A DNA stretch of 64,000 nt from Sutcliffiella sp. FSL R7-0096 (GTDB taxonomy: Bacteria; Bacillota; Bacilli; Bacillales; Bacillaceae_I), in contig NZ_CP152003.1 in NCBI RefSeq assembly GCF_038595065.1, positions 3,948,001 to 4,012,000 of the forward strand. The letters run 5' to 3'. The position numbers and the translations under genes are program-made. Numbering within the stretch: position 1 is the first letter of the stretch; every line of letters starts with the position of its first letter. This document shows positions 39,109-60,642 of the stretch, one piece after another. The notes under the pieces were generated by a model. It saw nothing but the letters and a program-made list of their open reading frames with translations, did not search any database and had not been told where the DNA came from.

Positions 39109-39939
39109 TTATTTTAAGTCCTCCATTTTGACAAATTCCATATCCTTGAAGGTATAGTTTTCGCCTGCCATTGCCCAAATGAACGTATAATTGTTCGTGC
39201 CCATACCAGAATGGATGGACCATGGCGGAGAAATGACTGCCTGTTCATTTTTCACCACAAGGTGACGCGTCTCGCTAGGCTCACCCATTAAATGAAAGAC
39301 CCTTGATTCCTCCTCCATATCGAAGTATAGATATACCTCCATACGACGGTCATGGATATGTGCCGGCATCGTATTCCACATATTATTCGGCTCAAGCAAT
39401 GTCATCCCCATCATTAATTGACAGCTTTGTATTCCCTCTTCATGGATATATTTATAAATCGTCCTTTTATTAGATTCACTGTCAGAACCCAGTCTAACCG
39501 GTTCCGCGTCTTCAATTGGTAATATCCGAGTAGGGTATTCCTTGTGTGCCAAAGATGATACAAGATAGAATTTCGCAGGTTCGGAGCTGTTTAAACTATG
39601 AAAAGTAACCTCTTCTTTTCCAAGTCCGACATAAAGACAGTCACGCTTACTTAATTCATACTCCTCGCCATCCACCACTACTTTACCTTTTGCCCCTATG
39701 TTGATGATGCCCACTTCTCTTCGCTCCAGGAAATATTCCGTTTGAAGCGTTTGGCTTCCTTCCAGCTTCAATGGTGCATCTGTTGGAATCGCTCCACCCA
39801 TCACGACACGATCATAATGGGAATAGACCATCTTGAGTTTTCCTTGTACAAACAATGATTCTATTAAAAATTCCTCTCTTAGACGCTCTGTTGTAAAAGT
39901 TTTCGCTTCGATCGGACTACCTGCGTATCTTACTTCCAT
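39109..39939 (-). CDS. kduI: 5-keto-4-deoxyuronate isomerase (KduI)
   Basis: Converts 5-keto-4-deoxyuronate, from unsaturated galacturonate, to 3-deoxy-glycero-2,5-hexodiulosonate. It is 276 residues of double cupin fold. Metal ligands lie in MPAHIHDRRMEVYLYF and WSIHSGMGTNNYTFIWAMAGEN; FFLERREVGIINIGAKG-type and KRDCLYVGLG stretches are also typical (the first reads FLERREVGIINIGAKG). AAGGAG lies upstream. It follows kduD by 32 bp, as in other pectin degraders. Confidence 0.95.
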   Translation of the reverse strand: MEVRYAGSPIEAKTFTTERLREEFLIESLFVQGKLKMVYSHYDRVVMGGAIPTDAPLKLEGSQTLQTEYFLERREVGIINIGAKGKVVVDGEEYELSKRDCLYVGLGKEEVTFHSLNSSEPAKFYLVSSLAHKEYPTRILPIEDAEPVRLGSDSESNKRTIYKYIHEEGIQSCQLMMGMTLLEPNNMWNTMPAHIHDRRMEVYLYFDMEEESRVFHLMGEPSETRHLVVKNEQAVISPPWSIHSGMGTNNYTFIWAMAGENYTFKDMEFVKMEDLK

Positions 39940-39971: not shown

Positions 39972-40736
39972 TTACCTTGCCATCCATCCGCCATCTACGG
40001 TGAGTACATGTCCATTCACATAATCAGAAGCATCTGATGCCAGGAATATTGCCGCACCGACTAAATCATCGGGCTTTCCCCATCGCTGAGCTGGGATCCT
40101 GGAAAGGATGGAAGCATTTCGTTCTTCGTTATTCCTGAGTGCTTCTGTGTTATTGGTTGCAATATATCCAGGTGCTATCGCATTTACCTGTATCCCCGAG
40201 GACGCCCACTCATTTGCCAATGCTTTTGTCAACCCGGCAATGGCATGTTTACTTGCGGCATATCCAGGGACGGTGATTCCCCCTTGAAACGATAATAGGG
40301 AGGCAATATTGATGATCTTTCCATTATTCCGGTCCAGCATCGGCTTTGCGAATGCCTGACAGAGAAGAAACACGGAATTGATATTGGTATCCAATACCGC
40401 CTGCCAATCCTCTAAAGAATGTGTAGCAGCAGGTTCCCTTCTGATGACACCAGCATTGTTCACGACAATATCAATGCTGTGGGAGGAAAGTATCTCCTCA
40501 CACTTCCCTTTTAATTCTTCCACCTTGGACAAATCCATTAAGTATGTTTCATATCTACCATCGAAGTGTGCTATTTCCGATTCGGTCTCTTGCATATTAT
40601 CCCGATGACCGACAAGGATTACCTTGGCCCCAGCTTTCGCGTATCCAATTGCGATCGCTTGTCCAATACCTGTCCTTGCCCCGGTAACAAGGGCAGTTTT
40701 TCCTTTTAAAGAAAACCATTCATTTACGTTATTCAC
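39972..40736 (-). CDS. kduD: 2-dehydro-3-deoxy-D-gluconate 5-dehydrogenase (KduD, SDR family)
   Basis: Reduces the KduI product to KDG. It is a 254-residue short-chain dehydrogenase with the cofactor loop VTGARTGIGQAIA at 17-29, NNAGVIRREPA, the catalytic Ser region IINIASLLSFQGG, the YAASK active-site motif, and C-terminal VDGGWMAR. The start is GTG at 40736, with GGAGG seven bases upstream. It forms the usual pair with kduI. Confidence 0.94.
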   Translation of the reverse strand: MNNVNEWFSLKGKTALVTGARTGIGQAIAIGYAKAGAKVILVGHRDNMQETESEIAHFDGRYETYLMDLSKVEELKGKCEEILSSHSIDIVVNNAGVIRREPAATHSLEDWQAVLDTNINSVFLLCQAFAKPMLDRNNGKIINIASLLSFQGGITVPGYAASKHAIAGLTKALANEWASSGIQVNAIAPGYIATNNTEALRNNEERNASILSRIPAQRWGKPDDLVGAAIFLASDASDYVNGHVLTVDGGWMAR

Positions 40737-42705: not shown

Positions 42706-43253
42706 GGTTGCACCAGCCTTGCATCCACCATAAATTGACGGAGTATAGTTAAAGCTTTTTCTCGATCATCACCATATTTGGGGACGACTGCCACCAACTC
42801 ATTCTGGATCGGCACCCCATTGAAAATTGGATGCTCCATTGGAATAGGGATGGCATAAATACGTTCCATCCCACCTTCATCCTCTGCCCTCAACTCGCTT
42901 TGGATCCTCTCTCCACCCTCCTCCACTACCACATCAAGTGCCTCAAGACCGATTGGGTCTAGAATGGAAGGTAGCATTTCTTTTTCTATAATCAGGATAT
43001 CCCCTGTATGACTGACGATATCCACCATGAGCCTTTCCAGCATTCCCGGATATAATTGGAGTTGAACTTCCTGATCAACGAACTTGCCATTACCCAACTT
43101 ATTTTTTCCAGTCAAAACAGAATCTTGAGGGAGATCTGTATAAACCAAGATTTGAAATCCATCATCCTTCCCCTTACAAGCTGTAAGCATAAGGAGAAGG
43201 ATTGCCGCTATCAACCCCTTGAACAAGAAGGGCCTATTCTCCATGACTTTCAT
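42702..43253 (-). CDS. Small lipoprotein of unknown function in the pectin operon
   Basis: 183 residues with a lipoprotein signal: hydrophobic run then lipobox MLTAC, lipidated Cys26. The mature part is short and acidic (ILVYTDLPQDSVL, then ILIIEKEMLP), with no catalytic motif I recognise. A PIPMEHPIFNGVPIQNELVA segment near the end and the size suggest a binding or accessory domain. The ATG at 43253 has GGAGG seven bases upstream. It sits between the GH105 hydrolase and the oxidoreductase (4-bp overlap), so it is cotranscribed with rhamnogalacturonan functions. Confidence 0.75.
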   Translation of the reverse strand: MKVMENRPFLFKGLIAAILLLMLTACKGKDDGFQILVYTDLPQDSVLTGKNKLGNGKFVDQEVQLQLYPGMLERLMVDIVSHTGDILIIEKEMLPSILDPIGLEALDVVVEEGGERIQSELRAEDEGGMERIYAIPIPMEHPIFNGVPIQNELVAVVPKYGDDREKALTILRQFMVDARLVQP

Positions 43254-43274: not shown

Positions 43275-44375
43275 TTATCCGATCAGCTTCTCCATTTCCA
43301 AGCAAGCGAAGATAAAGGAGCCTGCACCATGTAAATCGTTTTGGCTGCATTCGCGATTCACGTAATAGTCGTACGTTCCAATGGAAGTGCCAATACAAAT
43401 ATCTTTTAATACCACTTCTTCGCTCTCCGTTACTTCCACTTTGTGGACGATCATTCCTTCGAATCCTTTTTTGGCAATTTCCGCATATTCTTTGCCTACA
43501 TATCCTTTTGTAACAGCTTTGGCAATGGTATAGACGAATAGGCTTGAGCACGATGTTTCCAGCCAGTTATCCTCCAAGTGTCCTTTATCCACTATCTGAT
43601 ACCATAATCCGCTGTTTTTATCCTGATAGGAAGAGACTGCTTTCACATAGTCTTGGACGACGTGGATCCATTCATCACGTTTTGCATGTCCGTCTGGCAA
43701 AAGGTCTATCATGTCAATGACAGCAAGGCCATACCATCCAAGCGCCCGGCCCCAGAATTCAGGTGCACAATAGTTTTCTTTATTCACCCATGGCTGTGCA
43801 CCCTTTTCGTCCCATCCATGATAATAGAGTCCTGTTTTGTCATCCTTTGTATATTTCCGCATCAGCTGTTCTTGATGAAGGACCATATCTATAAGCTCTG
43901 GCTCCCCGAATGTACGGGCATATGTCAATGCATATGGCCCTCCCATATACAAGCCATCCAACCACATCTGATAAGGGTACTTATCTTTATGCCAAAATCC
44001 TCCCTCACTCGTCAAATTCAAAGTAGGGTATAGATCTCGAAGTTTTTTTGCTGCCATTTCATATTTTTTTTCTCCGGTACGTTGATAAATGGAGAATAGG
44101 AGAAGTCCTGCCTGAATGGCATCCAATTCATCGCGGGCAAAGTAGAAGTTTCCATATTCATCTATTAAATGATCGACATATGATTTTACATACTCATAAT
44201 ATTGTTCCTCTCCAGTGTGCTCCCAAATGCGAAGCATCCCACAAAGAAAAACTCCCTGGTGATAATGCCAGCGATTTGCCGGCGGTAGTTCTGGTGCAGT
44301 ATAACTATTCATCAGCGTTTCACTTATTTTTGCTGCATAGTATAAAGGTGTTTTCACTTTAATGACTTCGGACAT
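43275..44375 (-). CDS. Unsaturated rhamnogalacturonyl hydrolase (GH105, YteR/YesR-like)
   Basis: Hydrates and cleaves the unsaturated galacturonic acid from rhamnogalacturonan disaccharides made by lyases. The 366-residue alpha/alpha-barrel protein has the family core YPYQMWLDGLYMGGPYALTY with the catalytic Asp, NRWHYHQGVFLCGMLRIW at the N-terminus, PEFWGRALGWYGLAVIDMID and ETSCSSLFVYTIAKAV. There is no signal peptide, so it is intracellular, as for YteR. The ATG at 44375 lies seven bases after AAGGAG; upstream methionines (44381, 44423) fit less well. It is the first gene of the uronate operon, directly behind a perfect cre box. Confidence 0.92.
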   Translation of the reverse strand: MSEVIKVKTPLYYAAKISETLMNSYTAPELPPANRWHYHQGVFLCGMLRIWEHTGEEQYYEYVKSYVDHLIDEYGNFYFARDELDAIQAGLLLFSIYQRTGEKKYEMAAKKLRDLYPTLNLTSEGGFWHKDKYPYQMWLDGLYMGGPYALTYARTFGEPELIDMVLHQEQLMRKYTKDDKTGLYYHGWDEKGAQPWVNKENYCAPEFWGRALGWYGLAVIDMIDLLPDGHAKRDEWIHVVQDYVKAVSSYQDKNSGLWYQIVDKGHLEDNWLETSCSSLFVYTIAKAVTKGYVGKEYAEIAKKGFEGMIVHKVEVTESEEVVLKDICIGTSIGTYDYYVNRECSQNDLHGAGSFIFACLEMEKLIG

Positions 44376-44395
44376 ATTCATTCTCCTTTTCTGTT

Positions 44396-44410
44396 TTGTA
44401 AGCGATGTCA
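44396..44410. promoter_or_regulatory. CcpA binding site (cre) at the head of the uronate operon
   Basis: The plus strand reads TTGTAAGCGATGTCA, agreeing with WTGNAANCGNWNNCW at all fixed positions. It lies 21 bp before the GH105 start. Carbon catabolite repression of the 12-gene operon is the likely effect. Confidence 0.65.
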
Positions 44411-44616
44411 TTTTACTAGTCAAGGCAGACTGGAATTTTATTTTTTGATATTTCTGCCTTTTGTTAGTTCTAACTTATCTCTTTTTTTTTATCACCGATA
44501 CAATCATAAAATGATAACCTTCTAAAACAGCATCATAGAGCCATTTCTATCAAATGATATGACCTAATGAACCCAATGTTAGAAAATGATTATGTAGATT
44601 TATAGGGAAAATAGCT

Positions 44617-47190: not shown

Positions 47191-48759
47191 TTACTTCCCG
47201 ATGTATTCAAACCAATCGAAGTCCGCATGGTTGTCACTTTCCACTCCATTGCTGCTCGCATACATCCCGATATATGCCCCCACAAACCCTCCAGCCACAT
47301 CAGTACTTAAAATCCTTCCATCTATATTTCTAGCTAATTCCTTCCATTCTTCATCTTCTTCACGATAATAGAAATTATATTCCTGACCCATTGCTTCTAC
47401 TTTCATCAGTTGAACCGTTCTTTCTACCGGTTTTTCCACAACGGTTCGATCCATGCCTTCTTTTCTTTCTATAAGCCGCACGATCTCCCCCTTATCCCGG
47501 GTAAGGCTTTTTTCCACTCGTAGCTGAAAGTCATGACTTTGAAGAAGGATCAATCCTGCCACTTCATTTTCCTTTTCAGGTGTGAAATCCATAAGGATGG
47601 AAGCTTCAAAGCTTTTATGCTGCTGTCTCCTGCCGACAAACGAAGGGTTTACTTCCTCCGTTATTTTTTCTGGCTTAAGCTTTAATCTAAGATTGCTCTT
47701 TCGTTTCTTCAGGGACCAAAATTCATTACGTGGGGTGCGTATAAAGTTCCACTGCATACCAAGCATACTATCTTGAAAGTGATCTTTATCTGGTATTGCG
47801 GGAAATGCATGCTCCTTTAAATCTGGGTATCGCATCTTTTCTTCTACCATCCCCTTGCCGGGATTTACCACAGGCCATCCTGATTCCCAGATGAACGGGA
47901 CAAGGAAGGTCTCTCTTCCCAGGTTTCGATAACCCCCGCCATAAGGTCTAGTACCAAGACAGACCATCCACCATTCACCGTTTTGTGTCTCCACGATATC
48001 TGCATGTCCGATACTAGTGATAGCATGATCGCGACCCAAGTGACGATGGGTAAGTATCGGATTCATTTTACAGCTTTCATAGGGACCAGTAAGGTTTTCG
48101 CTCCTTGCAATCGTCACCGAATGTGTGAATCCAGTCCCACCTTCTGCAATGATTAAATAATAAAGACCATTGATTTTATATAAATGAGGAGCCTCCTGAG
48201 CGTGGGCATTTTTCAACGCCCCATCCCAGAGGTTGAAGGTGGGACCAATCAATTGATTGGTGTCTAAGTCTAGTTCCCGCATCCATATTTCCATGTGTTT
48301 AGCGTATTTTTGTCCGGAGGGAGGAACGCGATTTCCAGTATAGTAGGCTTTTCCATCATCATCAAAAAACAAGGAAGGATCGATTCCCGGTGCTCCCTCC
48401 AACCAATAAGGGTCAGACCATGGACCTTTAGGGTCGGAAGCCGTGACGAAGAAATTCCTCCTTGCACCCGTTTTACTTACTACAAAGGTGGTAATCACAT
48501 AAAAGAGCCCTTCATGGTAACGGATCGTGGCTGCATATATGCCTTTTGATGCTGGAGTCCTGTCTAAATCCAACTGGGATTCCCTGTCAAGTACATGTCC
48601 TATCTGTTGCCAATTCACCAAATCCTTACTATGAAAAATCGGGATGCCCGGAAAATATTCAAAAGTGGATGTCACTATATAATAGTCCTCCCCCACCCTA
48701 CAAATAGAGGGATCTGGATAAAATCCAGGCAAAATGGGATTATCAAATAATTTTTTCAT
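47191..48759 (-). CDS. GH43 beta-xylosidase/arabinofuranosidase-like enzyme (XynB type)
   Basis: A 522-residue intracellular glycosidase resembling XynB beta-xylosidases. The five-bladed catalytic domain (about 1-310) starts NPILPGFYPDPSICRVGEDY with the catalytic base Asp, has IDPSLFFDDDGKAYY with the pKa-modulating Asp, and AHAQEAPHLYKINGLYY with the general acid Glu. The C-terminal beta-sandwich (about 325-522) is the accessory domain usual in this GH43 group. There is no signal peptide. The ATG at 48759 has GGAGG nine bases upstream and overlaps the previous GH43 gene by 17 bp. It probably trims xylose or arabinose side chains from imported pectic oligosaccharides. Confidence 0.88.
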   Translation of the reverse strand: MKKLFDNPILPGFYPDPSICRVGEDYYIVTSTFEYFPGIPIFHSKDLVNWQQIGHVLDRESQLDLDRTPASKGIYAATIRYHEGLFYVITTFVVSKTGARRNFFVTASDPKGPWSDPYWLEGAPGIDPSLFFDDDGKAYYTGNRVPPSGQKYAKHMEIWMRELDLDTNQLIGPTFNLWDGALKNAHAQEAPHLYKINGLYYLIIAEGGTGFTHSVTIARSENLTGPYESCKMNPILTHRHLGRDHAITSIGHADIVETQNGEWWMVCLGTRPYGGGYRNLGRETFLVPFIWESGWPVVNPGKGMVEEKMRYPDLKEHAFPAIPDKDHFQDSMLGMQWNFIRTPRNEFWSLKKRKSNLRLKLKPEKITEEVNPSFVGRRQQHKSFEASILMDFTPEKENEVAGLILLQSHDFQLRVEKSLTRDKGEIVRLIERKEGMDRTVVEKPVERTVQLMKVEAMGQEYNFYYREEDEEWKELARNIDGRILSTDVAGGFVGAYIGMYASSNGVESDNHADFDWFEYIGK

Positions 48760-50323
48760 CGAGTATTTCCTCCCTTTTTGTTGAATGCAAGGGTTCAAAT
48801 CTAATCCAGTCGATGTCTACGTGTCCATCGCTTTCCTTTTCGCTTACACACAACATGCCGATCTGTGCCCCAACCCATCTTCCTGGTAAGGCTTTCACTT
48901 CACTTTTTATCCAGGTGAAATCAATGCCATTAGAAGAAAATGCAAAACGACAAACAGCTCTATCCTTTACTTCTATCCTGAAATACCCTGAGCCCTCTTT
49001 TACTAGAATTCCATCCTCCTGCTTTTCATCTGTCAGAAAAGATAAGCTGTAGCCTTCGTGCTTTTTTGTCATTAACAGCCCCTCATACTTTTCCCCGCAA
49101 ATCAAAAATCCAAATGCTTCTTCATGAGAGGCAGCGTTGAAGTCAAACTTAATCGTGACATTAATCTTTTCTGCAGGGAGCTTTTGAGTAAGGACATTTG
49201 GTTGATGCTGAATAAATGCCTCCTTTTTGGCAGGATAAAGTCGTAGCCATCCCTGCCTTGCCTTCAAGGAAAACCATTCATCCTTCCAATTTGCTTTCCA
49301 TTGCCATTGCAGACCTAACTCTGCTTTATTGAACTCATCGCTTGTTTGTGGCACCCTGGGAGAGTTCGACTTTCCAGCGGAAGGCTTTTTCCATCTTTTC
49401 ACTGGTTCCCCTATACCTTTAAAGTGGAGATCATTCCCCATCCATGGCCAATCGTCCTTCCAACCCATTGGCTGTAGATGAACAATTCGTCCGTATGCTT
49501 CTTTATCCTGAAAGTGTATGAACCATGACTCTTCGTTTTCCAGCTCTACCCATGCCCCCTGATGTGGACCATTTATATCCGTATCTCCCTGGGCAAGTAC
49601 TATCTTATCTTCATATGGGCCGAAAATATCTTCAGAACGAAGGACAGTTTGCCAGCCAGTGGCAACTCCACCTGCTGGGGCGAATATATAGTAATAGCCA
49701 TTTCGCTTATGCATCTTCGGCCCTTCAATGGTTGGATGGTTGATACTACCATCAAATACTATCGTTCCTTCACCTATCAATTCTGTTCCATCAGCTTTCA
49801 TTTTTATCATCTGCAACATGCTTTTAAAACCAATCCTGCTTTTTGCGAATGCATGGACCAAATAGGCATTTCCATCTTCATCCCAAAATGGGCAAGGGTC
49901 AATCCAGCCTTTTACTTGCTTCACAAGATGAAATGGGGTCCATTCACCAAACGGATCTTTTGTTTTACTCATGAAAATCCCTTCATCTGGAGCACCAAAG
50001 AAAACCCAATAATATCCATCGTGATATCGTATGCTTGGTGCCCAAACGCCATCCCCGTGCTGAGGCATCTCATAACGCGGATAGGGGAACGTTCTACTAA
50101 CATGATTAATAATTTCCCAGTTTATAAGATCCTTCGAATGCAAAACGGGCAGACATGGGGACATATTGAAGCTTGAGGCAACCATAAAGAAGTCTTCTCC
50201 TACTCTAATTACATCGGGATCTGAGTAATCTGCATGGATGATTGGATTCTGATAATTACCATTTCCTAAATCTGGATTCCATACCCCTTCTACCTTATTT
50301 GCATCTTGCAGTTTTTTTCCCAC
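48743..50323 (-). CDS. GH43 glycosidase (arabinosidase/xylosidase-like)
   Basis: 526 residues, a second and divergent GH43. The catalytic domain starts NPIIHADYSDPDVIRVGEDF (base Asp), has WIDPCPFWDEDGNAYLVHAF and the acid Glu in HPTIEGPKMHKRNGYYYIFA. A C-terminal beta-sandwich follows (about 320-520, ending GHVDIDWIRFEP). It also lacks a signal peptide. The start is GTG at 50323, with AAGGA ten bases upstream. Paired with the other GH43, it suggests two different side-chain linkages are attacked. Confidence 0.87.
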   Translation of the reverse strand: MGKKLQDANKVEGVWNPDLGNGNYQNPIIHADYSDPDVIRVGEDFFMVASSFNMSPCLPVLHSKDLINWEIINHVSRTFPYPRYEMPQHGDGVWAPSIRYHDGYYWVFFGAPDEGIFMSKTKDPFGEWTPFHLVKQVKGWIDPCPFWDEDGNAYLVHAFAKSRIGFKSMLQMIKMKADGTELIGEGTIVFDGSINHPTIEGPKMHKRNGYYYIFAPAGGVATGWQTVLRSEDIFGPYEDKIVLAQGDTDINGPHQGAWVELENEESWFIHFQDKEAYGRIVHLQPMGWKDDWPWMGNDLHFKGIGEPVKRWKKPSAGKSNSPRVPQTSDEFNKAELGLQWQWKANWKDEWFSLKARQGWLRLYPAKKEAFIQHQPNVLTQKLPAEKINVTIKFDFNAASHEEAFGFLICGEKYEGLLMTKKHEGYSLSFLTDEKQEDGILVKEGSGYFRIEVKDRAVCRFAFSSNGIDFTWIKSEVKALPGRWVGAQIGMLCVSEKESDGHVDIDWIRFEPLHSTKREEILDEKII

Positions 50324-50339
50324 CAGCTACACGTCCTTT

Positions 50340-51353
50340 TTACGTTAATTGTCGGATTAGCCAATCATAGGACTTTTTCCCATTTATCTCATGGCCACCA
50401 TCGAAAAATTCAACTTCTAATGCCATATTGGCATCAAATGCCCGATAGATTTCTTGGATTCTGCTGTATGCTTCCTTTGCATGCTTGACTGGAAACACCT
50501 TATCTTCCATCCCAGACTCAATGAATAGGGGTCTTGGTACCATCAGTCCCAAAAGATCCGGCATCTCTGCAACCTGCAGAATGTTCGGAATATAATTATC
50601 AAGACAATGATTCCTATCCATGATGCTCCCTTTAAAAGTATTGGCATATCCACTGACAACCGTTGCCTGGATCCGTTCATCCAGAACAGCTGTATAGGCA
50701 CTTACAAGACCTCCACCAGAAAGTCCCATGATCCCTATCTGTTCCTTATCGATATCCTCCCTTGTGAGTAGATAGTCTAATAGTCTTCTGCATTCATTGA
50801 TTCTTAACCCTGCCAATGTTTTTCCCATCATCAATAAACTACTTGCGAGATGAAAGCATGAGTTTTTTTCTGTGGGTTCAAATTGCTGATCTTTCATCAT
50901 CCGTCTATCCCCAAATCCAATCAGTTCCGGTACTGCCACCAGTACCCCCTTCTTAACCAGCTCCACTGCAAAATTATTATGAATGCCGGGTTCGCTTCTC
51001 TCTATTCCAGCTGGATCCAGCCCGATAGCTTCCTTGCTACCATAACCATGACCATGAATGGCCAAAACTAACGGACGTTTTCTTTTCGATTTTATCCCTC
51101 TCTTTGGAATGAGAAGGTAAAATGGCATTTTCAAGCCTGGATAGGTCGTGATCTGAAGATGAAGCCTTGTATATTCTTCGTTTTCACGGACTTCCAGTAT
51201 AGTTGGCTTCATGTCTGCGAATGGAGGAAAATCTCCCAAAAGGAGCTGAAATTCATTTTTTTTCTTTGATTGCCATTCGACATCAAAGTGATGGGTGTGA
51301 TCTTGAAGCCTTTCTTCGTATAAAGTTTGAAGGAAGCCATCCGGATTCCACAT
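50340..51353 (-). CDS. Alpha/beta hydrolase, probable carbohydrate esterase
   Basis: A 337-residue alpha/beta hydrolase of the dienelactone hydrolase/acetyl-xylan-esterase-like group. The oxyanion region is LVLAIHGHGYGSKEA, nucleophile Ser in IGIMGLSGGGLVSAYTA, catalytic Asp in FIESGMEDKVFP and His in FFDGGHEINGK. No signal peptide is seen. The ATG at 51353 is preferred because GGGAGG lies upstream, although an ATG at 51374 overlaps the GH28 stop. Context between GH28 and GH43 genes suggests removal of acetyl or similar esters from oligosaccharides. Confidence 0.8.
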   Translation of the reverse strand: MWNPDGFLQTLYEERLQDHTHHFDVEWQSKKKNEFQLLLGDFPPFADMKPTILEVRENEEYTRLHLQITTYPGLKMPFYLLIPKRGIKSKRKRPLVLAIHGHGYGSKEAIGLDPAGIERSEPGIHNNFAVELVKKGVLVAVPELIGFGDRRMMKDQQFEPTEKNSCFHLASSLLMMGKTLAGLRINECRRLLDYLLTREDIDKEQIGIMGLSGGGLVSAYTAVLDERIQATVVSGYANTFKGSIMDRNHCLDNYIPNILQVAEMPDLLGLMVPRPLFIESGMEDKVFPVKHAKEAYSRIQEIYRAFDANMALEVEFFDGGHEINGKKSYDWLIRQLT

Positions 51354-51370
51354 AGATCCTCTTCCTCCCT

Positions 51371-52900
51371 TCATCGTACTTGAGCTATATTAATTTGACT
51401 GTTTATGTGTTCGGCATAGCTATCCATTAATTTTTCGGATTGTCTTCCTGATATATAGATATCCTCTGCATTTTTCAGCATGATGACAGGTGTATTTTCA
51501 TGTAGGTTTTTCATCTCTAGGTTTTGAATTCCCACATCTGATGATTCTTCTAAATGTAATGCAGGCCCTTGTCTCGTTTCAATTCGAACCTGATTCAACT
51601 CCATGCCATCGATGAATTTTCCATACAGCCCTTCTCCGGCCATAATGATGACTTCTTTGACCATATCAGGCTCTCCACCAGCCTCATTGGCATCGTTCGT
51701 CATCTCAATATGAACATGAGATAAGGAGATATCTTGAACCGGCATTTCCGGTAGTCCATGAATGAATCCTGCCGCCGCCCGGCAATTCTTCGCTGTAACA
51801 TTACTTAATCTAATATGTTTCACCATTGGTGTTTTTTCGCTGACTGGAATTGCTTCCATTGAATTCATGGTTGGATCATTCTCATCCACCCCGTAGCGAT
51901 AGAAGGAATTGATAGAAAACGGACAAAAAACATCTTCCATATAAATGTTGTTTACAAGAATATTTTCAACATAAGCACCTCGTGCGCGATTCGTTTTGAT
52001 TCGTATTCCCCTGTCTGTCCCGATAAAGACACAATTGGAAACTGTCACATTTCGGATCCCCCCTGAGTTTTCACTTCCCATAACCACGCCTCCGTGACCA
52101 TGGAGCATCGTACAATTGGATACTGTCACATTTTCCGTTGGCTTGCCTACCCTTCTCCCGTCTTCATTGATTCCAGACTTCAAGCAAAGGCAATCATCCC
52201 CGACATCAAAATGACAGTCAGATACCCTCACATTGGAACAAGAATCAATATCAAATCCATCTCCGTTTGGAGTATCAGAAGGATTCTTAAATGTTACCCC
52301 CCTGACTTGGACATCCCGGCAATAGACAAGATGGGTATTCCAAAATGGGGAATTTTGGAGGGTGACACCTTCTATGGTGACGTGTTCACAATCCATAAGC
52401 TGCAGAAGCGGCGGCCGAAGGAATTGAGAATCCCACTCTACTAAATTGGTGGAGAGGGGTTCAAGCATTGCCTCGTTATGCTGACGAATTTCCTTCGTCA
52501 CTGCAGTGTTAATCGATTCTCCTTCCTTAAGACGTTTGTTTATTTCCCACCAAGCTTTACCTTGACCATCTATTACACCATGCCCTTTGATGCTCACATT
52601 CTTTAAGGAGCTCCCAAAGATCAGCGGAGAAAAACCATAGCACTCATACCCAGACCATCTTGTCTTGACGCTAGGATAAACATCGAATTCATCTATGAAA
52701 ATTACTTTTGACCCTGTATCAAGATAAAGATTGATATTGCTTTGCATCACGATGGGACCTGTCAAAAATTCACCCGCGGGGATAAATACCGTACCTCCCC
52801 CATTCCCTGCACAATCTGTTATTGCTTTAGCTATTGCTTCTGTGTTATTGGTCTTGTTATCTCCTTTTGCTCCATAGGTGGTAATATCATATACAACCAC
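51371..52900 (-). CDS. GH28 polygalacturonase-family enzyme
   Basis: Hydrolyses galacturonic acid linkages in pectic oligomers. 509 residues in a right-handed beta-helix, with the GH28 signatures NGDGFDIDS, VGDDCLCLKSG (the DD pair), GHGGVVMGSE (His) and RGIRIKTNRA (R-x-K substrate clamp). The N-terminus begins VVYDITTYGAKGDNKTNN with no signal peptide, so the enzyme is intracellular and likely exo-acting. The start is GTG at 52900, with AGGAGGG upstream. An internal terminator precedes it, so it may have its own promoter or be expressed less than upstream genes. Confidence 0.9.
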   Translation of the reverse strand: MVVYDITTYGAKGDNKTNNTEAIAKAITDCAGNGGGTVFIPAGEFLTGPIVMQSNINLYLDTGSKVIFIDEFDVYPSVKTRWSGYECYGFSPLIFGSSLKNVSIKGHGVIDGQGKAWWEINKRLKEGESINTAVTKEIRQHNEAMLEPLSTNLVEWDSQFLRPPLLQLMDCEHVTIEGVTLQNSPFWNTHLVYCRDVQVRGVTFKNPSDTPNGDGFDIDSCSNVRVSDCHFDVGDDCLCLKSGINEDGRRVGKPTENVTVSNCTMLHGHGGVVMGSENSGGIRNVTVSNCVFIGTDRGIRIKTNRARGAYVENILVNNIYMEDVFCPFSINSFYRYGVDENDPTMNSMEAIPVSEKTPMVKHIRLSNVTAKNCRAAAGFIHGLPEMPVQDISLSHVHIEMTNDANEAGGEPDMVKEVIIMAGEGLYGKFIDGMELNQVRIETRQGPALHLEESSDVGIQNLEMKNLHENTPVIMLKNAEDIYISGRQSEKLMDSYAEHINSQINIAQVR

Positions 52901-52987: not shown

Positions 52988-53296
52988 TCAATCCAATAAA
53001 TCTTCACGCAAGGGAGTGAATGTATCTAATAAAGCACTGGCTTCTAATGCCTTCACCCCATGTACAACATTCCCGGGAATGAAAAGCGATTCCCCTTGTT
53101 GAAGAAGCACTTTCTCTCCGCCTAAATTAAACTCCAGCTTTCCCTTAAGACAATAGGTGAATTGCTCGTGCGGATGACTGTGCTCCGCTCCTATGGCTCC
53201 TGTTTCAAAGTGAACCTCCATCATCATCAGCGTTTTGCCCGGCGGATAAATTTTTCTTTTCACCCCAGTATCTACGTTTTCCCACGTTCCAACCAT
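52988..53296 (-). CDS. kdgF: Cupin protein KdgF
   Basis: A 102-residue single-cupin protein of the KdgF type, which speeds conversion of unsaturated galacturonate to 5-keto-4-deoxyuronate, the substrate of KduI. Metal ligands are in GAEHSHPHEQFTYCLKG (His, His, Gln) and PGNVVHGVKALE. The open frame runs to 53518 but overlaps the MFS gene; the ATG at 53296 has AAGGAG eight bases upstream and begins the conserved domain (VGTWENVDTGVKRKIY). Confidence 0.9.
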   Translation of the reverse strand: MVGTWENVDTGVKRKIYPPGKTLMMMEVHFETGAIGAEHSHPHEQFTYCLKGKLEFNLGGEKVLLQQGESLFIPGNVVHGVKALEASALLDTFTPLREDLLD

Positions 53297-53313: not shown

Positions 53314-54519
53314 TTAAGATTCTTTTGCCATCCATGGTATCAATAGCTGCACTGCCATGAGCGATACTATGACCCAAGGAATGGTTGTTGGATTGATTTC
53401 TGCCGAGAAAATCATAAATATGACAATGCCCAATCCTCGACCAATATTTATAATGGATTCTCTCAACACCACCGATTCCACTCGGAAGTTTTCTTTCAAT
53501 GGCAGATGATCCAGCCATCTATAATAATGTGCGGCATATGTATTTGCCTGTAATGGCTTAAAGATTGATCCTATTGACATGAAGAGGACAACAGTCCAGA
53601 TGGAAATATCCCATAATAGAAAAACCGTGGAGAAGGTCATCCCAAAAGCAGCTACAAACAGATATGTCTTTGTCGCATCAAGCCTTGCAAAGCGGGAAAT
53701 AACATAGCTTGCAAGGATGGAAAGCATCAAAAACAACATGTTCATATAGCCGACGAAACTTTCATCAGGAAAAATATCATACAAAAGTATATGTGGGATA
53801 TACATCAACACGCCTTGCGGGAATCCAATGATGAACCACCCTAGAAGCACAAGTCCAAAACCCGGCTTCTTTGTCAATAATAGTGGGAGAAACTTCATAT
53901 AATAGGCTTTATGATGAGTGGTTTCTTTTTTCATCCTGAGACTTCCCAACGCCGCTACTAGAAACATTATAAAGGCAAAGGAAAAGACCATGATATAGCC
54001 AGTCAACTCTGTATATAAACTAATGATGAAGCCTGCCATGGCAGGGCCTAAAAGATTCGCACCACTCATGGTGATCTGGTTCCAACCCAAATAACGATGT
54101 CTATTGTCATTATTGGAAACATCATAAACAAGGGTGAAGTAACCAATCCAATAGGCTGCTTGGGATATCCCTTTCAAGAGGGCAAATAAGTAGAAATAAT
54201 CGACCATCCATTCTTGGGTTAACACAATACACAAATAGAAAAATGCGGTTAAGAAAATACCATATCGATACATGGTCAACCTGTCGCGCCTTTTCGCCAC
54301 TTTTCCGAGGAATATGGTCATAACCCCTTGTGAAAGGATGGCGATCAGGTTAAAGAGGCCGTTAATCAATAGGCTGTTCGTTAACCGCCAGAGATACAGA
54401 TTGATGAAAATCATCGATAATGCATTCCCAAATTGAAAGATGCTTTGGTTCACCAGGGTAATGACTGCTTGTTCTGAAAATCTCTTTTCCTTCGATACTT
54501 TAAATCTATCCAAGATCAT
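53314..54519 (-). CDS. MFS transporter
   Basis: A 401-residue major facilitator with about 12 hydrophobic helices and basic loop AKRRDRLTMYRYG after helix 2, matching the usual MFS loop 2-3 position. The substrate is not predictable from sequence; placement between kdgF and a pectin operon protein suggests an oligosaccharide or uronate. It would be a second import (or export) route besides the ABC system of the same operon. It follows the preceding gene by 13 bp. Confidence 0.8.
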   Translation of the reverse strand: MILDRFKVSKEKRFSEQAVITLVNQSIFQFGNALSMIFINLYLWRLTNSLLINGLFNLIAILSQGVMTIFLGKVAKRRDRLTMYRYGIFLTAFFYLCIVLTQEWMVDYFYLFALLKGISQAAYWIGYFTLVYDVSNNDNRHRYLGWNQITMSGANLLGPAMAGFIISLYTELTGYIMVFSFAFIMFLVAALGSLRMKKETTHHKAYYMKFLPLLLTKKPGFGLVLLGWFIIGFPQGVLMYIPHILLYDIFPDESFVGYMNMLFLMLSILASYVISRFARLDATKTYLFVAAFGMTFSTVFLLWDISIWTVVLFMSIGSIFKPLQANTYAAHYYRWLDHLPLKENFRVESVVLRESIINIGRGLGIVIFMIFSAEINPTTIPWVIVSLMAVQLLIPWMAKES

Positions 54520-54532
54520 CTGAACACTTCTC

Positions 54533-55639
54533 TCACTTTAAGAGTTTATAAAAATTACTAGACCCATAAATCGGCCGATAGCTCTCCCCTGCCAACTCAT
54601 AGCATTGCAATCTTATTAAAACGGCTTGTGTGCTTGCGTTCATATCCCCTTCAAACAAGCCCTCACTCAAATGAACAGCCTCTGGCATATCTGGGTAATA
54701 CTCGCCTTTCACTTGTGCGACATTCGGGGCGGAAGGGGAATTCCCTGACTCCCTGGAAAAGCCCCCATCAGGCCTCTTGAGTTTTTTCATGTTCTCAGCT
54801 GTAATTTGGATGATTTCTTCCAGTTCCTGATGTGGAATGTCCCGTTTTATATAGGATAAAAGATTAATAGGATTTCGAATATAGCACATGTCATGTGCTT
54901 CTTCGGTACGAAGGCAAGTCAACAAGCTTTGATAGATTTTTTCTGTATTTGGCATCGGCAGGTTGAACCTGCTATAAAATCCATGTAACTTAAATGTGCC
55001 GGAAATCCTCACATATAAACTGCCGTCCCCCCATAAGCCAGTCACTGGGTCCTGAATACTCTCCAGATACCTCTGTGCCTCTTCCAGGAAAGGGCGCCTG
55101 TCCTCTTCGTTCATTTCTCCAATATACATACAAGAAGATCCCAATAAATCGCATCCGCGCCAGCTGTTTCGCATATCGATGCTTTTCCATTTTTCCAAAT
55201 AGCTTTCTGGTGTCTTTACATAAGCCGGCGCCGTTTTTGCCATCAGGGGGAGAGGATGGCGTGGATTACTGCCAAGCTTCCCCAATGACCCAAATGAATA
55301 ACTTAATGCCCTGTGCACCATCACTTCGTCCTTTTTCATTGCTGGATTCTCATCAAAGAAGTAGCCTGTCATCGAATCTTGCTTTTGTTGATAAAAAGCA
55401 ATCATTTTATCTGCCATTTGTGATGGTATATCCTTTAGCAGATTGTTTCGGATTAGAATGTTCAATGCTTGGGAGGTAGATTCAATGTCTGGCTCATAAA
55501 GTTTGTGATGGATGGAACTCCTGGCATAATAGAACCCTCCTGTTTTGGGATCATACTGTCCTGCCAACCATGGAAAAAAGCCTTCAAACAAGATATCTAT
55601 CTTCTCAAGCCCCTCCATAACCCCTGTGCTAGTAGTCAT
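54533..55639 (-). CDS. Protein of unknown function in the pectin operon
   Basis: A 368-residue soluble protein I do not recognise. It is mostly helical with repeated aromatic/glycine turns (YDPKTGGFYYARSS, DSMTGYFFDENPAM, DPVTGLWGDGSLYV, RPDGGFSRESG) spaced through the sequence, which resembles alpha/alpha-toroid folds of the GH105/GH88 or prenyltransferase-repeat kind. Candidate catalytic acids lie in these turns. No signal peptide or membrane helix is seen. The ATG at 55639 has GGGGAG eight bases upstream; a GTG at 55648 is less good. It lies directly after the ABC permeases and before MFS. An unsaturated-glycoside hydrolase or related glycosidase is possible but not shown. Confidence 0.6.
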   Translation of the reverse strand: MTTSTGVMEGLEKIDILFEGFFPWLAGQYDPKTGGFYYARSSIHHKLYEPDIESTSQALNILIRNNLLKDIPSQMADKMIAFYQQKQDSMTGYFFDENPAMKKDEVMVHRALSYSFGSLGKLGSNPRHPLPLMAKTAPAYVKTPESYLEKWKSIDMRNSWRGCDLLGSSCMYIGEMNEEDRRPFLEEAQRYLESIQDPVTGLWGDGSLYVRISGTFKLHGFYSRFNLPMPNTEKIYQSLLTCLRTEEAHDMCYIRNPINLLSYIKRDIPHQELEEIIQITAENMKKLKRPDGGFSRESGNSPSAPNVAQVKGEYYPDMPEAVHLSEGLFEGDMNASTQAVLIRLQCYELAGESYRPIYGSSNFYKLLK

Positions 55640-55671
55640 TTCAAACACTCCCCACTTTAAAAATAGATTTC

Positions 55672-56547
55672 TTACTCCTTCACAGACCCAAGCAAGGCAC
55701 CCTTCGTGAAATGCTTCTGTAAGAATGGATAAACAAGCAAAACAGGAATGGTCGCTACCACTATGACTGCCATCTTCACCGTGATTTCAGGTGGCGCCAC
55801 ATCCATCATTTCGGATCCATCGTAGTTAATCCCCGTTGCCAGGACGACAATTTGACGCAGGAGGACCTGTACCGGCCATTTTGATGCATCATTGAGATAC
55901 AGAATTGCATGCATATACGTATTCCAATAGGTGACAGCATAGAATAATGAAATAGTTGCAATCGCTGGCATCGAGCATGGAATGACAATACGGAATAACG
56001 TCCCAAAATCACTACACCCGTCAATCCTTGCCGCTTCTTCCAAAGAATCAGGCATGTTTTGGAAGAAACTCTTTAGGATAATGAGGTTAAAAGCATTCAA
56101 TGTCACCGGAATGACCAACGCCGCCAACGTATCAAGTAGACCTGTATACTTTACAACTAAGAATGTTGGAATCATCCCGCCATTGAATAACATTGTAAAT
56201 ACGACAAAAAACAACAGAAATCTTCTTCCCACTAAATCCTTCTTAGAAAGTCCATAAGCTGTCAGGATGGAAAAAAACATACTCCATGCCGTACCTAGTA
56301 CTGTCACACCGATGGATACCCCCATCGCTTTAAAGATGGTATCAGTTGAGAAAATGTATCTATAAGCATCTAAGCTGAATACCGTTGGAAACAGGAGGAA
56401 TTTTTTCTCTGCCAGTTCTGCATTGGTGGCAAAAGATGCTGCGATAACATGAAGAAATGGCAACACGGTAATTATTGCAATAAGTCCTAGTAAGAAGAGG
56501 TTCGTGTAGTTAAAAAGACGACCTCCTAAAGTTTTATCATCCACCAT
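55672..56547 (-). CDS. Carbohydrate ABC transporter permease (YtcP/LplC type)
   Basis: A 291-residue inner-membrane permease with about six helices and the EAA loop EEAARIDGCSDFGTLFRIVIP that docks the ATPase. N-terminal ALIAIITVLPFLHVIAASF-type sequence (seen as LLGLIAIITVLPFLHVIA) is usual for this group of Bacillus oligogalacturonide/rhamnogalacturonan importers. It pairs with the permease upstream (22-bp gap). No ATPase gene is near; the shared ATPase MsmX normally fills this role. Confidence 0.9.
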   Translation of the reverse strand: MVDDKTLGGRLFNYTNLFLLGLIAIITVLPFLHVIAASFATNAELAEKKFLLFPTVFSLDAYRYIFSTDTIFKAMGVSIGVTVLGTAWSMFFSILTAYGLSKKDLVGRRFLLFFVVFTMLFNGGMIPTFLVVKYTGLLDTLAALVIPVTLNAFNLIILKSFFQNMPDSLEEAARIDGCSDFGTLFRIVIPCSMPAIATISLFYAVTYWNTYMHAILYLNDASKWPVQVLLRQIVVLATGINYDGSEMMDVAPPEITVKMAVIVVATIPVLLVYPFLQKHFTKGALLGSVKE

Positions 56548-56568: not shown

Positions 56569-57534
56569 TTAATATACGCCTTCTTCTCCAGCCTTCTTGG
56601 CTAACCAGTTAGCACCAATAACCAAAATAAGACCAACTATTCCTTTAAAAAATCCAACAGCTGTACTGTAGCTGAACTGCCCCTGCTGGAGACCGACGCG
56701 GTACACATACGTGTCAAAAATCTCCCCAACTTCTCGATTGGAAGCATTAAGCAGCAAGTATACATGTTCAAATCCAAGCTCCAATACATCTCCGATCTTC
56801 AAAATTAACAATACAATGATGACTCCCTTGATTGCAGGAAGTGTAATATGCCACATCATCTGAAGACGGCTTGCCCCGTCGATTCTCGCCGCTTCATAAA
56901 GTTGCGGATTTACCGCTGCAATGGCAGCAAGGAAAATAATTGTCCCCCACCCGGCTTCTCTCCATATAACTTGGAGGATATACATAGGTCTAAACCAATC
57001 TGGATTCAAAAGGAAATTTATCTTATTAAATCCCAACCACTCAATAATTCCATTTACTAATCCCCCGTCTAAGGTCAGCATGACAAAACTTATGGATACA
57101 ATGACAACCCAAGACATGAAATGAGGGATATAGATAAGGGTCTGAACACTTCTTTTAAATAATTCGATTCTCACCTCATTCAACATCAACGCAATGATGA
57201 TTGGAATCGGAAAGAAGATAAATAGATTTAGTGCAAATAGAATTAACGTATTGCGGAATATGTTCCAAAAGTCCGGATCTGAGAACAACCGAGTAAAATG
57301 CTGAAACCCAACCCACTCACTACCAAGGATTCCTAAGTATGGCTTGTAATCTTGGAATGAAATGATTAATCCGTACATCGGAATATATTTATAGATGAAA
57401 AAGTATAACAACCCCGGCAAGATCATTAAATAAATCATTTTATTTTTCCATATTTGCTTCTTTAACTCTGCTCGACGATCTAGCTTAGGTGGTACAGGAT
57501 TACTATTTAGTGCTAAGTCATTTTCCGTCTTCAT
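56569..57534 (-). CDS. Carbohydrate ABC transporter permease (YteP/LplB type)
   Basis: A 321-residue permease with six helices, a basic N-terminus (KLDRRAELKKQIWKNKMIYL) and the EAA loop YEAARIDGASRLQMMWHITL. It belongs to the LplB/YteP class, whose substrates in Bacillus are complex pectic oligosaccharides. It is first in the import operon, transcribed away from the pectin methylesterase gene, with GAGAGG upstream. Together with the next permease and the lipoprotein at 59140-60642 it makes an importer. Confidence 0.9.
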   Translation of the reverse strand: MKTENDLALNSNPVPPKLDRRAELKKQIWKNKMIYLMILPGLLYFFIYKYIPMYGLIISFQDYKPYLGILGSEWVGFQHFTRLFSDPDFWNIFRNTLILFALNLFIFFPIPIIIALMLNEVRIELFKRSVQTLIYIPHFMSWVVIVSISFVMLTLDGGLVNGIIEWLGFNKINFLLNPDWFRPMYILQVIWREAGWGTIIFLAAIAAVNPQLYEAARIDGASRLQMMWHITLPAIKGVIIVLLILKIGDVLELGFEHVYLLLNASNREVGEIFDTYVYRVGLQQGQFSYSTAVGFFKGIVGLILVIGANWLAKKAGEEGVY

Positions 57535-57748: not shown

Positions 57749-57786
57749 CTTAGTAGTCATCCATAATGAAAAAGGAGGTCCATCCA

Positions 57787-58686
57787 TTGAATCAAATGAT
57801 ATCGGTCGCTAAAGATGGCAATGCAGATTTCACCAACATTCAAGATGCAATCAATCATGTCCGGGTACATCCTCTTCAACCTGTTACCATTTTCATCAAA
57901 GATGGGATCTATGTAGAGAAAATTACCATTCCAGATAATAAGCCATATATCAAGCTGATAGGAGAAAGTGAAGAAGGAACTATCATTTCGTATCACGAAT
58001 CAGCAAAAATGAAAGATACCTCCGGCACCCCTTTGGGAACTTTCCGAACATCTGTGGTTTCCATTTTTGCCGATAACATCAAACTGGAGAATCTGACAAT
58101 CAGAAATAGTGCTGGTTTCGGAGAAATAGTCGGTCAAGCATTATCTCTATATGTCTCGGGTAGACAGAATCAATTTAAGAATATTAGGCTATCAGGTTAT
58201 CAAGATACTTTATACACCTCACATGGAAGCCAACTCTTTCAGAACTGCTATATAGAAGGGGATATTGACTTCATTTTTGGAGCGGCTACTACCTTATTTC
58301 ATCAATGTGAAATACATAGTTTGCGCAGGGGCTACATTACCGCAGCTTCCACCCCAAAGACCCAAAAATATGGTTTTGTGTTCTTGGAGTGCCGTCTAAC
58401 TGGTGCAGCCAAAGCGGACAGTGTTTATCTTGGCAGACCATGGCGGCCCTACTCCCACACTTATTTCATTCGAACTTGGATGGGTCCCCATGTTAAAAGG
58501 GAAGGCTGGGATAATTGGAGAGACGTAGCAAATGAAAAATCCGCCAGATATGGAGAATATGAATGCATGGGACCAGGGGCCGAATCCGAAGATAAAGTTC
58601 GTGTCGACTGGGCAACCGACCTTTCAAGCAAAGACGATTTGCCGTTGACTATTGAAAGTGTTTTCCCGGATTATCATAGCTGGTAG
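57787..58686 (+). CDS. Pectin methylesterase, cytoplasmic form
   Basis: Removes methyl groups from galacturonan oligomers. From the TTG at 57787 it has 299 residues; AAAGGAGG lies eight bases before it, whereas the ATG at 57766 overlaps that RBS and the ATG at 57796 is too far away. Beta-helix signatures of the family are GQALSLYVSG, SGYQDTLYTSHG (general acid Asp), GDIDFIFGAATTLFHQCE (nucleophile Asp) and YLGRPWRPYSHTYF (Arg, Trp). There is no signal peptide, unlike secreted plant-pathogen enzymes, so it works on imported pieces. It is transcribed divergently from the ABC permeases. Confidence 0.92.
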   Translation: MNQMISVAKDGNADFTNIQDAINHVRVHPLQPVTIFIKDGIYVEKITIPDNKPYIKLIGESEEGTIISYHESAKMKDTSGTPLGTFRTSVVSIFADNIKLENLTIRNSAGFGEIVGQALSLYVSGRQNQFKNIRLSGYQDTLYTSHGSQLFQNCYIEGDIDFIFGAATTLFHQCEIHSLRRGYITAASTPKTQKYGFVFLECRLTGAAKADSVYLGRPWRPYSHTYFIRTWMGPHVKREGWDNWRDVANEKSARYGEYECMGPGAESEDKVRVDWATDLSSKDDLPLTIESVFPDYHSW

Positions 58687-59139: not shown

Positions 59140-60642
59140 CTAGTTACCTGCTGATTCGTTAAATTCGTCGATGATTTCTTGACCACCTTGATCTAACCAT
59201 CTCTGTACCGCTTTTTCAAATCCATCCTTATCGATTTGGCGGAGAATATATTGATAGGTCGCATCCTGGATAATGGTTCTCAATCTTTCCCCATTTGCTA
59301 AGAATGCATCAGAATCAAGAGTCAATGTTGGGTCGGCAATCAAGTACTGCTCATTTTCAATAAATAACTCTTCAGACTTAGCTTTCGGCTCATAAGTATG
59401 ATACCCTTCGTAACGTCCGTTTGTTTCAGGTTCCCCAATCTCAATAGCCTGGAATGGTTTCACTTCTCGGTCATTCTTAGCCGTATCCTCTGCTGGTTGT
59501 CCCATTCCATCTATCACTGAATAATGCTCTCCTTCAATTCCCCAGAAAATCAAGTTAGAGACTTCAGGACTCATTAAATCATTGAAAAATGCTAGAATTC
59601 TTTTTAATTCTGCTTCCGATTTTACAGAGGATTTCGGGAACATGACGACATTTCCGTAGCCTGGCAAACTCCAAATTCCGTATTCACCATGTGGCCCTTC
59701 AACATAATTGTGTACATCGAGTTCTGCATCAGGATGTACTTTCGCCAAGTCAGTATAGAGGCTCTGTACATCCCCCATAGAACCTACATAGATTCCTGCA
59801 GTTCCATTGATGAATAAGGCTTGCTGATCATTTTTACTTGTTACAGGGAAGTCCTGGTTCATATAGCCATTTTCATGCATGTCCTTGAAATAATCCAAAG
59901 TCTGCATGTACTCTGGGAACATGAAAGCTGGTCTTAACTTTCCATCTTCTCCTTCGCCCCATTCATTAGGTGTCCCGAACCATGAAGCCACTGTATAAAA
60001 TGCCCCATATACTAAGTCACTGCGGTCTGTAACACCGATTGTATCCTTTTTGCCGCTCTTGTTTGGATCGTTTTCTGTGAATTGCTTGGCCATTTCAAAG
60101 AATTCTTCCGTGGTAGTAGGAGCTGATAAGCCTAGGTTGTCCGCCCAGTCTTTACGATAGATAATTCCTTGGCGGGAGAGTGGCCTGCCTTGATAAAGGG
60201 CATAGACTTTATCATCCACCCTTGTATTCTCGATAATCTGATCCTTTAGTTTACTTAAGTTTTCATAGTCATCAAGATATGGTCCAATTTCCCAAAATTG
60301 ATCATCTCGAATTGCATCCTTGAACTGATTGAATGTTGTCTGATTTTTCATAAATACCGCTTGTGGAAGAGATCCAGTGGCAAATGCAGTATTCAATCTT
60401 TCCTCATAGTTATTATCCGGCACCCATTGAAACTCTAATGTCGTGTTTGTCTTTTCTTCCAATAATTCTTTAATTTTATCCTGTGGTACTTCTGGTGTAT
60501 GAAGATTTGCCATGATAGAAATAGTATACGGTTTATCACTATCAATTTCTGTATTTGAAGCGCTTTCATTATTGCAAGCACTTACAAACACCAAGACCAA
60601 CGAAAGAAGAAGAAAGGCGAAAGTTTTTTTAGTTGCTTTCAT
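59140..60642 (-). CDS. ABC transporter solute-binding lipoprotein (YtcQ/LplA type)
   Basis: The 500-residue extracellular binding component of a sugar importer. It has a lipoprotein signal with lipobox FVSAC and lipidated Cys23, then a family 1 type solute-binding fold: YTISIMANLHTPEVPQDKIK, LPQAVFMKNQTTFNQFKDA, LYQGRPLSRQGIIYRKDWAD, AGIYVGSMGDVQSLY and YGIWSLPGYGNVVMFPKSS. This size class (about 500) pairs with LplB/LplC-type permeases, matching those at 55672-57534, although they are separated by the methylesterase gene and the repeats. Pectic oligosaccharide binding is inferred from context. Confidence 0.9.
   Translation of the reverse strand: MKATKKTFAFLLLSLVLVFVSACNNESASNTEIDSDKPYTISIMANLHTPEVPQDKIKELLEEKTNTTLEFQWVPDNNYEERLNTAFATGSLPQAVFMKNQTTFNQFKDAIRDDQFWEIGPYLDDYENLSKLKDQIIENTRVDDKVYALYQGRPLSRQGIIYRKDWADNLGLSAPTTTEEFFEMAKQFTENDPNKSGKKDTIGVTDRSDLVYGAFYTVASWFGTPNEWGEGEDGKLRPAFMFPEYMQTLDYFKDMHENGYMNQDFPVTSKNDQQALFINGTAGIYVGSMGDVQSLYTDLAKVHPDAELDVHNYVEGPHGEYGIWSLPGYGNVVMFPKSSVKSEAELKRILAFFNDLMSPEVSNLIFWGIEGEHYSVIDGMGQPAEDTAKNDREVKPFQAIEIGEPETNGRYEGYHTYEPKAKSEELFIENEQYLIADPTLTLDSDAFLANGERLRTIIQDATYQYILRQIDKDGFEKAVQRWLDQGGQEIIDEFNESAGN

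Follow-up and report, generated by a model that had tools for sequence, protein, structure and literature searches.

Introduction

Two described systems bear on how imported pectin fragments become unsaturated monomers inside the cell. In one of them, from Paenibacillus, lyases outside the cell produce unsaturated di- and trigalacturonate, which serve as substrates for GH105 enzymes in the cytoplasm (PMC7267202). In Dickeya, the cytoplasmic step from digalacturonate to the unsaturated monomer is performed by the PL22 oligogalacturonate lyase, Ogl (PMC12838403). Cyclic 4,5-unsaturated uronates are substrates of KdgF, which opens the ring and yields the open-chain keto form (PMC12838403 and references therein). 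At the level of gene organization, the pectin-induced cluster of Bacillus sp. N16-5 contains ABC transporter genes (orf_3707, 3708, and 3710) together with genes for GH28 (3705), GH43 (3704), and GH105 (3703) (PMC3542313).

The locus described herein was found in a window (that is, the whole stretch of DNA analyzed) of 64,000 nucleotides from Sutcliffiella sp. FSL R7-0096, and its ABC, GH28, GH43, and GH105 genes follow the same order as those of the N16-5 cluster. Within it lies a gene for a protein with a predicted toroid fold (the toroid protein), on which no paper was found in the literature. The protein represents a new, unnamed family, although its fold class and the kind of operon in which it resides are already well known. 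We tentatively propose that it may cleave imported galacturonides upstream of KdgF.

A pectin cluster carrying an intact and constrained toroid gene

The features of the cluster are as follows, with the ABC transporter components and the two GH43-like enzymes named from sequence only.

59140..60642, minus strand: putative extracellular solute-binding lipoprotein of an ABC transporter (signal peptide, lipobox-like Cys, and synteny)
56569..57534, minus strand: putative ABC transporter permease (synteny in addition)
55672..56547, minus strand: putative ABC transporter permease of the carbohydrate uptake type, directly 5' of the toroid gene
54533..55639, minus strand: toroid protein, 368 amino acids from the ATG at 55639, predicted cytoplasmic
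53314..54519, minus strand: MFS transporter, directly 3' of the toroid gene (Pfam MFS_1, E 3e-17)
52988..53296, minus strand: kdgF, a cupin named by position and sequence (Cupin_2, E 2e-16)
51371..52900, minus strand: GH28 polygalacturonase-type hydrolase (Pfam GH28, E 2e-42)
50340..51374, minus strand: alpha/beta hydrolase, putative pectic esterase (Pfam Abhydrolase_7, E 1e-12)
48743..50323, minus strand: candidate GH43-like glycosidase
47191..48798, minus strand: candidate GH43-like glycosidase
43275..44423, minus strand: GH105 unsaturated galacturonyl hydrolase (Pfam Glyco_hydro_88, E 7e-124, 413 bits)
39972..40736, minus strand: KduD-like short-chain dehydrogenase, the KduD name being inferred from position (Pfam adh_short_C2, E 1e-56)
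39109..39939, minus strand: KduI, DKI isomerase (Pfam KduI, E 1e-36)

The initial annotation had placed the toroid gene in an operon with ABC permeases, an MFS transporter, and kdgF, and the arrangement bears this out: the neighbors lie on the same strand and are separated by short gaps, namely, 32 nt to the upstream permease (end 55672), 13 nt to the downstream MFS gene (start 54519), and 17 nt from the MFS gene to kdgF. A scan for promoters and terminators across the operon gave counts no higher than chance. The GH105 gene is the sole GH105 match in this genome by profile search.

Three further genes of the region are recorded here as observations in their own right. Adjoining the GH105 gene is a small lipoprotein-like protein of 183 amino acids (42702-43253, minus strand) with no Pfam match, whose relatives, at approximately 28-36% identity, occupy the same place in five other loci (L011, L012, L013, L027, and L059). 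A Gfo/Idh/MocA oxidoreductase of 427 amino acids (41422-42705, minus strand) also lies inside the cluster, and its orthologues in L013 and L053 are 67-69% identical. Finally, a pectin methylesterase-like protein with no evident signal peptide (57766-58686, plus strand) is transcribed divergently from the permease genes; Paenibacillus amylolyticus, too, has been described as having a pectin methylesterase in the cytoplasm (PMC7267202).

The toroid reading frame is genuine, far above chance expectation. A GTG at 55648 would extend it to 54533-55648 (minus strand); the ATG at 55639, which is preceded by a GGGGAG Shine-Dalgarno motif approximately 8 nt upstream, is the better start, because the alternative GTG abuts that motif, and all residue numbers refer to the 368-residue form. 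The frame is intact and under strong purifying selection: differences from the S. horikoshii gene number 15, 13, and 59 at the first, second, and third codon positions, respectively, a third-position excess, with a dS of 0.29 and a dN of 0.038. Of 24 further loci inspected closely, the draft copy in Bacillus sp. JCM 19034 is the only split one (L018, 9968-10970, in two frames), reflecting either a frameshift or a draft sequencing error. Since neither a signal peptide nor a membrane helix was detected, we take the protein to be cytoplasmic.

Sequence family and predicted fold

Searches of Pfam, NCBIfam, PHROGs, and the PDB, run with the single sequence and with profiles of 11 and 26 rows, returned no significant sequence match. 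The best-scoring Pfam entry (HgmA_C, E 0.02) and the PDB entries inhibin, MJ1010, and aldoxime dehydratase were rejected as chance matches. Five to six of the 26 family members weakly match PF00432/PF13243 (Prenyltrans and SQHop_cyclase_C; best E 1e-4), and one gives a weak GlcNAc_2-epim match (E 0.04-0.05); the window protein itself matches neither PF00432 nor PF07221 (GlcNAc_2-epim). Nor does it match PF07470 (GH88/GH105) at E <= 1, and a comparison of the toroid and GH88/GH105 profiles by hhalign aligned 33 columns only, at the common turn motif, with a probability of 50. For the polysaccharide lyases, the window protein matches neither PL10 (PF09492; hhalign probability 0.1) nor PL22 (PF14583). 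The earlier view that no family motif could be assigned is thus upheld, there being no strong match to a characterized family in the databases searched.

An AlphaFold2 model built from the window protein and 10 orthologues (pLDDT 88, pTM 0.89, with a weak stretch at approximately model residues 308-316) consists of some 12 alternating helices that form an (alpha/alpha)6 toroid. The initial annotation had read an alpha-toroid layout, with repeated G-G-F/G-L-W type turns, from the 368-residue sequence; the turns YDPKTGGFYY, QDSMTGYFFD, QDPVTGLWGDG, and KRPDGGFSRE are indeed present and fall between helices in the predicted toroid, and the model and its structural matches agree with that layout. 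It had also proposed a fold search against GH88/GH105/GH127-like toroids; that these are the nearest folds was not borne out. Instead, among the matches listed by VIA-align, prenyltransferase beta subunits come first (Z 17.8 over 276 residues, 3.9 A), followed by squalene-hopene cyclases (Z 14.8) and glucose/cellobiose 2-epimerases of the AGE type (Z 14-14.7 over approximately 300 residues). The 50 VIA matches listed include neither GH127 nor GH88, which rules out neither; the GH88 enzyme UGL (3vxd) was matched by Foldseek at E = 0.04 only, with GH154 also appearing. GH127 enzymes combine a barrel with beta-sandwich domains and have a zinc/cysteine active site. The toroid model shows no beta-sandwich, and the protein has no Pfam match. 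Because helical toroids score high among themselves, these Z-scores fix the fold class and not the function.

Conserved residues

The polar residues conserved without exception across 30 members include D51, E53, Q57, D96, R110, D164, K217, D250, C252, R255, N256, R296, E330, D332, N334, and Q338. In the model, most of them would be placed where one of six helices begins or shortly ahead of it, these helices being read as the inner ones from the DSSP order, and so dense a polar set in such positions resembles an active site. None of the histidine columns is invariant across the 30 toroid sequences. In AGE epimerases, a conserved catalytic histidine pair is located on the inner helices, and PL22 enzymes are beta-propellers with histidines and a metal; the missing histidine, therefore, speaks against both chemistries.

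These residues weigh on two readings raised by the structural matches. If the nearest solved folds were taken literally, the toroid protein would be a prenyl- or terpene-type enzyme, as might be argued from the prenyltransferase and cyclase scores, the weak PF00432/PF13243 matches, and the D-x-C-Y at 250-253, which we take to recall the zinc site of farnesyltransferase. D250 and C252 would correspond to the DxC zinc ligands of prenyltransferase beta. However, the third ligand, a histidine, is not invariant, and the fused relatives described below keep just the cysteine, so a farnesyltransferase-like zinc site was rejected. Further, the DxDD motif is absent in all 29 members checked, and the operon has no prenyl or terpene gene in a setting that is pectin throughout. 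We regard a literal reading of these folds as very improbable. An AGE-type sugar epimerase or isomerase with a pectic mono- or disaccharide as its substrate would accord with the epimerase scores over some 300 residues and with the one weak GlcNAc_2-epim match, yet the window protein lacks a PF07221 match and the family lacks an invariant histidine, which leaves this role improbable.

Orthologue distribution and gene neighborhoods

The toroid protein had been supposed to be an orphan, which it is not: orthologues are numerous, and a sister family exists at a greater distance. The orthologues are 44-92% identical, and nearly all are located in pectin loci. They occur in 7 of 101 relatives (the window genome counted among the 7), on 11 contigs of a species-level genome collection (with genera including Sutcliffiella, Halalkalibacter, Litchfieldia, Metabacillus, Gracilibacillus, and Paenibacillus), and in an order sample, in 20 of 397 genomes and 9 of 135 genera. 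Three genomes from another class of the same phylum also carry them; two of these were included in the alignment, with identities of 44-46%. No relative was found among viral contigs or in a viral fold library.

The neighborhoods of 24 loci were read out. The commonest order is ABC permeases, toroid gene, MFS gene, kdgF, and then GH28/GH43/GH105. An ABC permease lies directly 5' of the toroid gene in 16 of the 24 loci and an MFS gene directly 3' in 18, and kdgF is one of the next three genes downstream in 19, including L008, where it was confirmed by translation. The pectin link made in the initial annotation holds in related operons as well and is a tight one. Departures from the common order are instructive. 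In L054, no MFS gene is present and kdgF adjoins directly; in L056 and L057, a toroid-MFS-kdgF module accompanies a xylose-isomerase-like TIM barrel, with no adjoining ABC permease. In L015 (Metabacillus bambusae), the toroid gene overlaps by 4 bp an upstream gene for a PL10 plus pectinesterase product that has binding modules, and GH105 and kdgF come after it, and in L024, the gene immediately preceding the toroid gene encodes a PL10 pectate lyase. In L024, L025, and L058, all from the other class, neither MFS nor kdgF adjoins.

As a separate observation, xylose-isomerase-like TIM barrels (AP_endonuc_2) occur near the toroid gene in three loci (L056, 10857-11717; L057, 12179-13021; L025, 1964-2809). 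They belong to two distant groups and are possibly uronate isomerases or epimerases of the same pathway.

Across the 101 relatives, the 7 genomes with the toroid gene are also the only ones with the MFS gene (E <= 1e-60), and GH28 occurs in these 7 and one more. Such perfect co-occurrence, together with adjacency in most loci, an operon that carries both MFS and ABC import, and the lack of a known catalytic motif, could be explained if the toroid protein were a non-catalytic uronide-binding or regulatory partner of either transporter. We consider such a partner unlikely, given that no MFS gene lies beside the toroid gene in L015, L024, L025, L054, and L058, and that its invariant polar residues are arranged in an active-site-like manner. 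Alternatively, the protein could be a toroid glycoside hydrolase for another pectic-oligosaccharide bond, in saturated, xylose-substituted, or acetylated/methylated galacturonides, and would then not feed KdgF directly. Many (alpha/alpha)6 toroids are glycosidases, GH154 and GH88 appeared in the Foldseek results, and the two GH43-like genes, the GH28 gene, and the esterase gene found further along the same operon in many loci suggest a decorated galacturonan as the substrate. Nevertheless, GH43 and GH28 are absent beside the toroid gene in L014, L054, L057, and L024, three of which keep kdgF or PL10, and we judge the hydrolase reading to be rather doubtful.

A sister domain fused to hexapeptide acyltransferases

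Searches by tblastn gave weak matches on Rhizobium plasmids, located toward the C terminus of proteins that carry the annotation acyltransferase. The N-terminal part of these Rhizobiaceae and Streptomyces proteins is a hexapeptide acyltransferase, and the C-terminal domain of approximately 340 residues, which belongs to no Pfam family, is homologous to the toroid family (hhalign probability 97, E 4e-11, 272 columns; 0.1-0.3 for the GH28, GH43, and SBP controls). Examples are the following.

L022, 9272-10924: hexapeptide acyltransferase-toroid fusion
L029, 8995-10632: hexapeptide acyltransferase-toroid fusion
L030, 8908-10587: hexapeptide acyltransferase-toroid fusion
L032, 8953-10590: hexapeptide acyltransferase-toroid fusion

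The fused domains are 18-22% identical to the window protein. The two groups share 14 invariant columns, including W160, D164, W203-G204, G214, and C252; position 217 is always K or R, and R110, R255, N256, E330, and D332 differ in the fused homologues. Such fusions, annotated as acyltransferases or as DapH/GlmU-related, are common in Streptomyces and on the plasmids of Rhizobiaceae. In Agrobacterium vitis, the fusion gene comes after genes for an ABC transporter, GH88, DUF624, and DUF2264; in Martelella, it lies near DUF2264, and in Streptomyces, behind two GH28 genes. Its neighbors in Rhizobium phaseoli and Rhizobium sp. TAL182 are proline genes, so its link to uronide operons is not universal.

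A proposed step between galacturonide uptake and KdgF

From this context, we infer the enzyme status of the toroid protein, its substrate, its product, and its reaction type. Our preferred reading, which we hold tentatively and at somewhat less than an even chance, is that it works in the cytoplasm as an enzyme on imported (oligo)galacturonides and provides KdgF with 4,5-unsaturated galacturonate. The ABC and MFS transporters would import short galacturonides, and the toroid enzyme, with an active site of its own in the toroid funnel, would cleave them to 4,5-unsaturated galacturonate, either doing the job of an oligogalacturonate lyase, by beta-elimination as PL22 does, or trimming the terminal unsaturated residue, as GH105 does. 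We lean toward beta-elimination over hydrolysis. The product would then pass through KdgF and on to KduI, KduD, KdgK, and KdgA, ending in pyruvate and glyceraldehyde-3-phosphate.

The enzyme content of the window genome has room for such a step. Genes for KdgF, KduI, and KduD are all present. The lyase families examined were PL22, PL1, PL3, and PL10, and among them, no PL22 (PF14583) match, no PL3, and no PL1 above the cut-off were found, the weak PL1 match being the GH28 of this genome, with a marginal PL10-like match at 27 bits. With the downstream enzymes present and PL22, PL1, and PL3 not found, a cytoplasmic maker of unsaturated galacturonate would fit the gap. Also counting for this reading are the proximity of kdgF, the adjacency of PL10, the toroid-MFS-kdgF module, the co-occurrence with MFS and GH28, the enzyme-like polar conservation, and the residues kept in the acyltransferase fusions.

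Other observations count against it. GH105 passes the profile cut-off in 23 of the 24 toroid genomes (marginally in G500) and so could, on its own, supply the unsaturated galacturonate. The presence of PL22 in 7 of the 20 toroid genomes of the order sample, the residues that differ in the fused homologues, and the three loci of the other class in which neither MFS nor kdgF adjoins also weigh on this side.

Two simpler roles were considered and set aside. In the order sample, PL22 is carried by 17 of the 397 genomes and by 7 of the 20 toroid genomes, and because these 7 carry both, the toroid protein does not simply replace PL22. A role as a mere GH105 helper is, in turn, weakened by two toroid genomes (G669 and G500) without a bona fide GH88/105.

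A bolder version of the cytoplasmic galacturonide-cleaving enzyme may be envisaged, although we find it doubtful: the toroid protein would define a family of oligogalacturonate lyases that is new, cytoplasmic, built on a prenyltransferase-like (alpha/alpha)6 toroid, and unrelated to PL22, that supplies KdgF in Bacillales lacking PL22, and that belongs to a wider uronide-processing superfamily, also found fused to acyltransferases in plant-associated bacteria. If the protein is indeed an enzyme, it would represent a carbohydrate-active family missing from Pfam, NCBIfam, and the PDB, acting after pectin fragments are taken up and before KdgF. The production of unsaturated monomers in pectin-using Bacillales without PL22 would thereby be explained, and the family would offer a first idea of what the sister domain does in the uronide operons of rhizobia, agrobacteria, and streptomycetes.

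Comparison with known systems

Set against the systems nearest to it, the toroid protein shares some aspects with each. It resembles the PF00432/PF13243 toroids in its predicted (alpha/alpha)6 architecture and in the Q-x-x-x-x-G-G/L-F/W turns between hairpins, yet it is only approximately 12% identical to them, has neither the DxDD motif nor a complete zinc site, and occupies a different gene context. The GH88/GH105 enzymes (YteR, YesR, and UGL) are alike in toroid fold class, cytoplasmic location, operons, and the kind of substrate proposed; they differ in that the toroid protein has no PF07470 match, and the two genes stand side by side in most loci. The proposed role is that of PL22 (Ogl), the cytoplasmic route from digalacturonates to the unsaturated monomer, whereas the toroid protein is helical in its model, lacks an invariant histidine and a PL22 match, and has a gene that coexists with that of PL22 in 7 genomes. 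PL10 (PF09492) is likewise of a helical toroid type and is encoded by the adjacent gene in L015 and L024, but it is extracellular and shows no significant profile similarity. Finally, the acyltransferase fusions, unlike the window protein, have an N-terminal acyltransferase attached, but they carry a homologous domain, and several of them reside in uronide or pectin operons, with DUF2264, GH88, GH28, and ABC sugar transporters.
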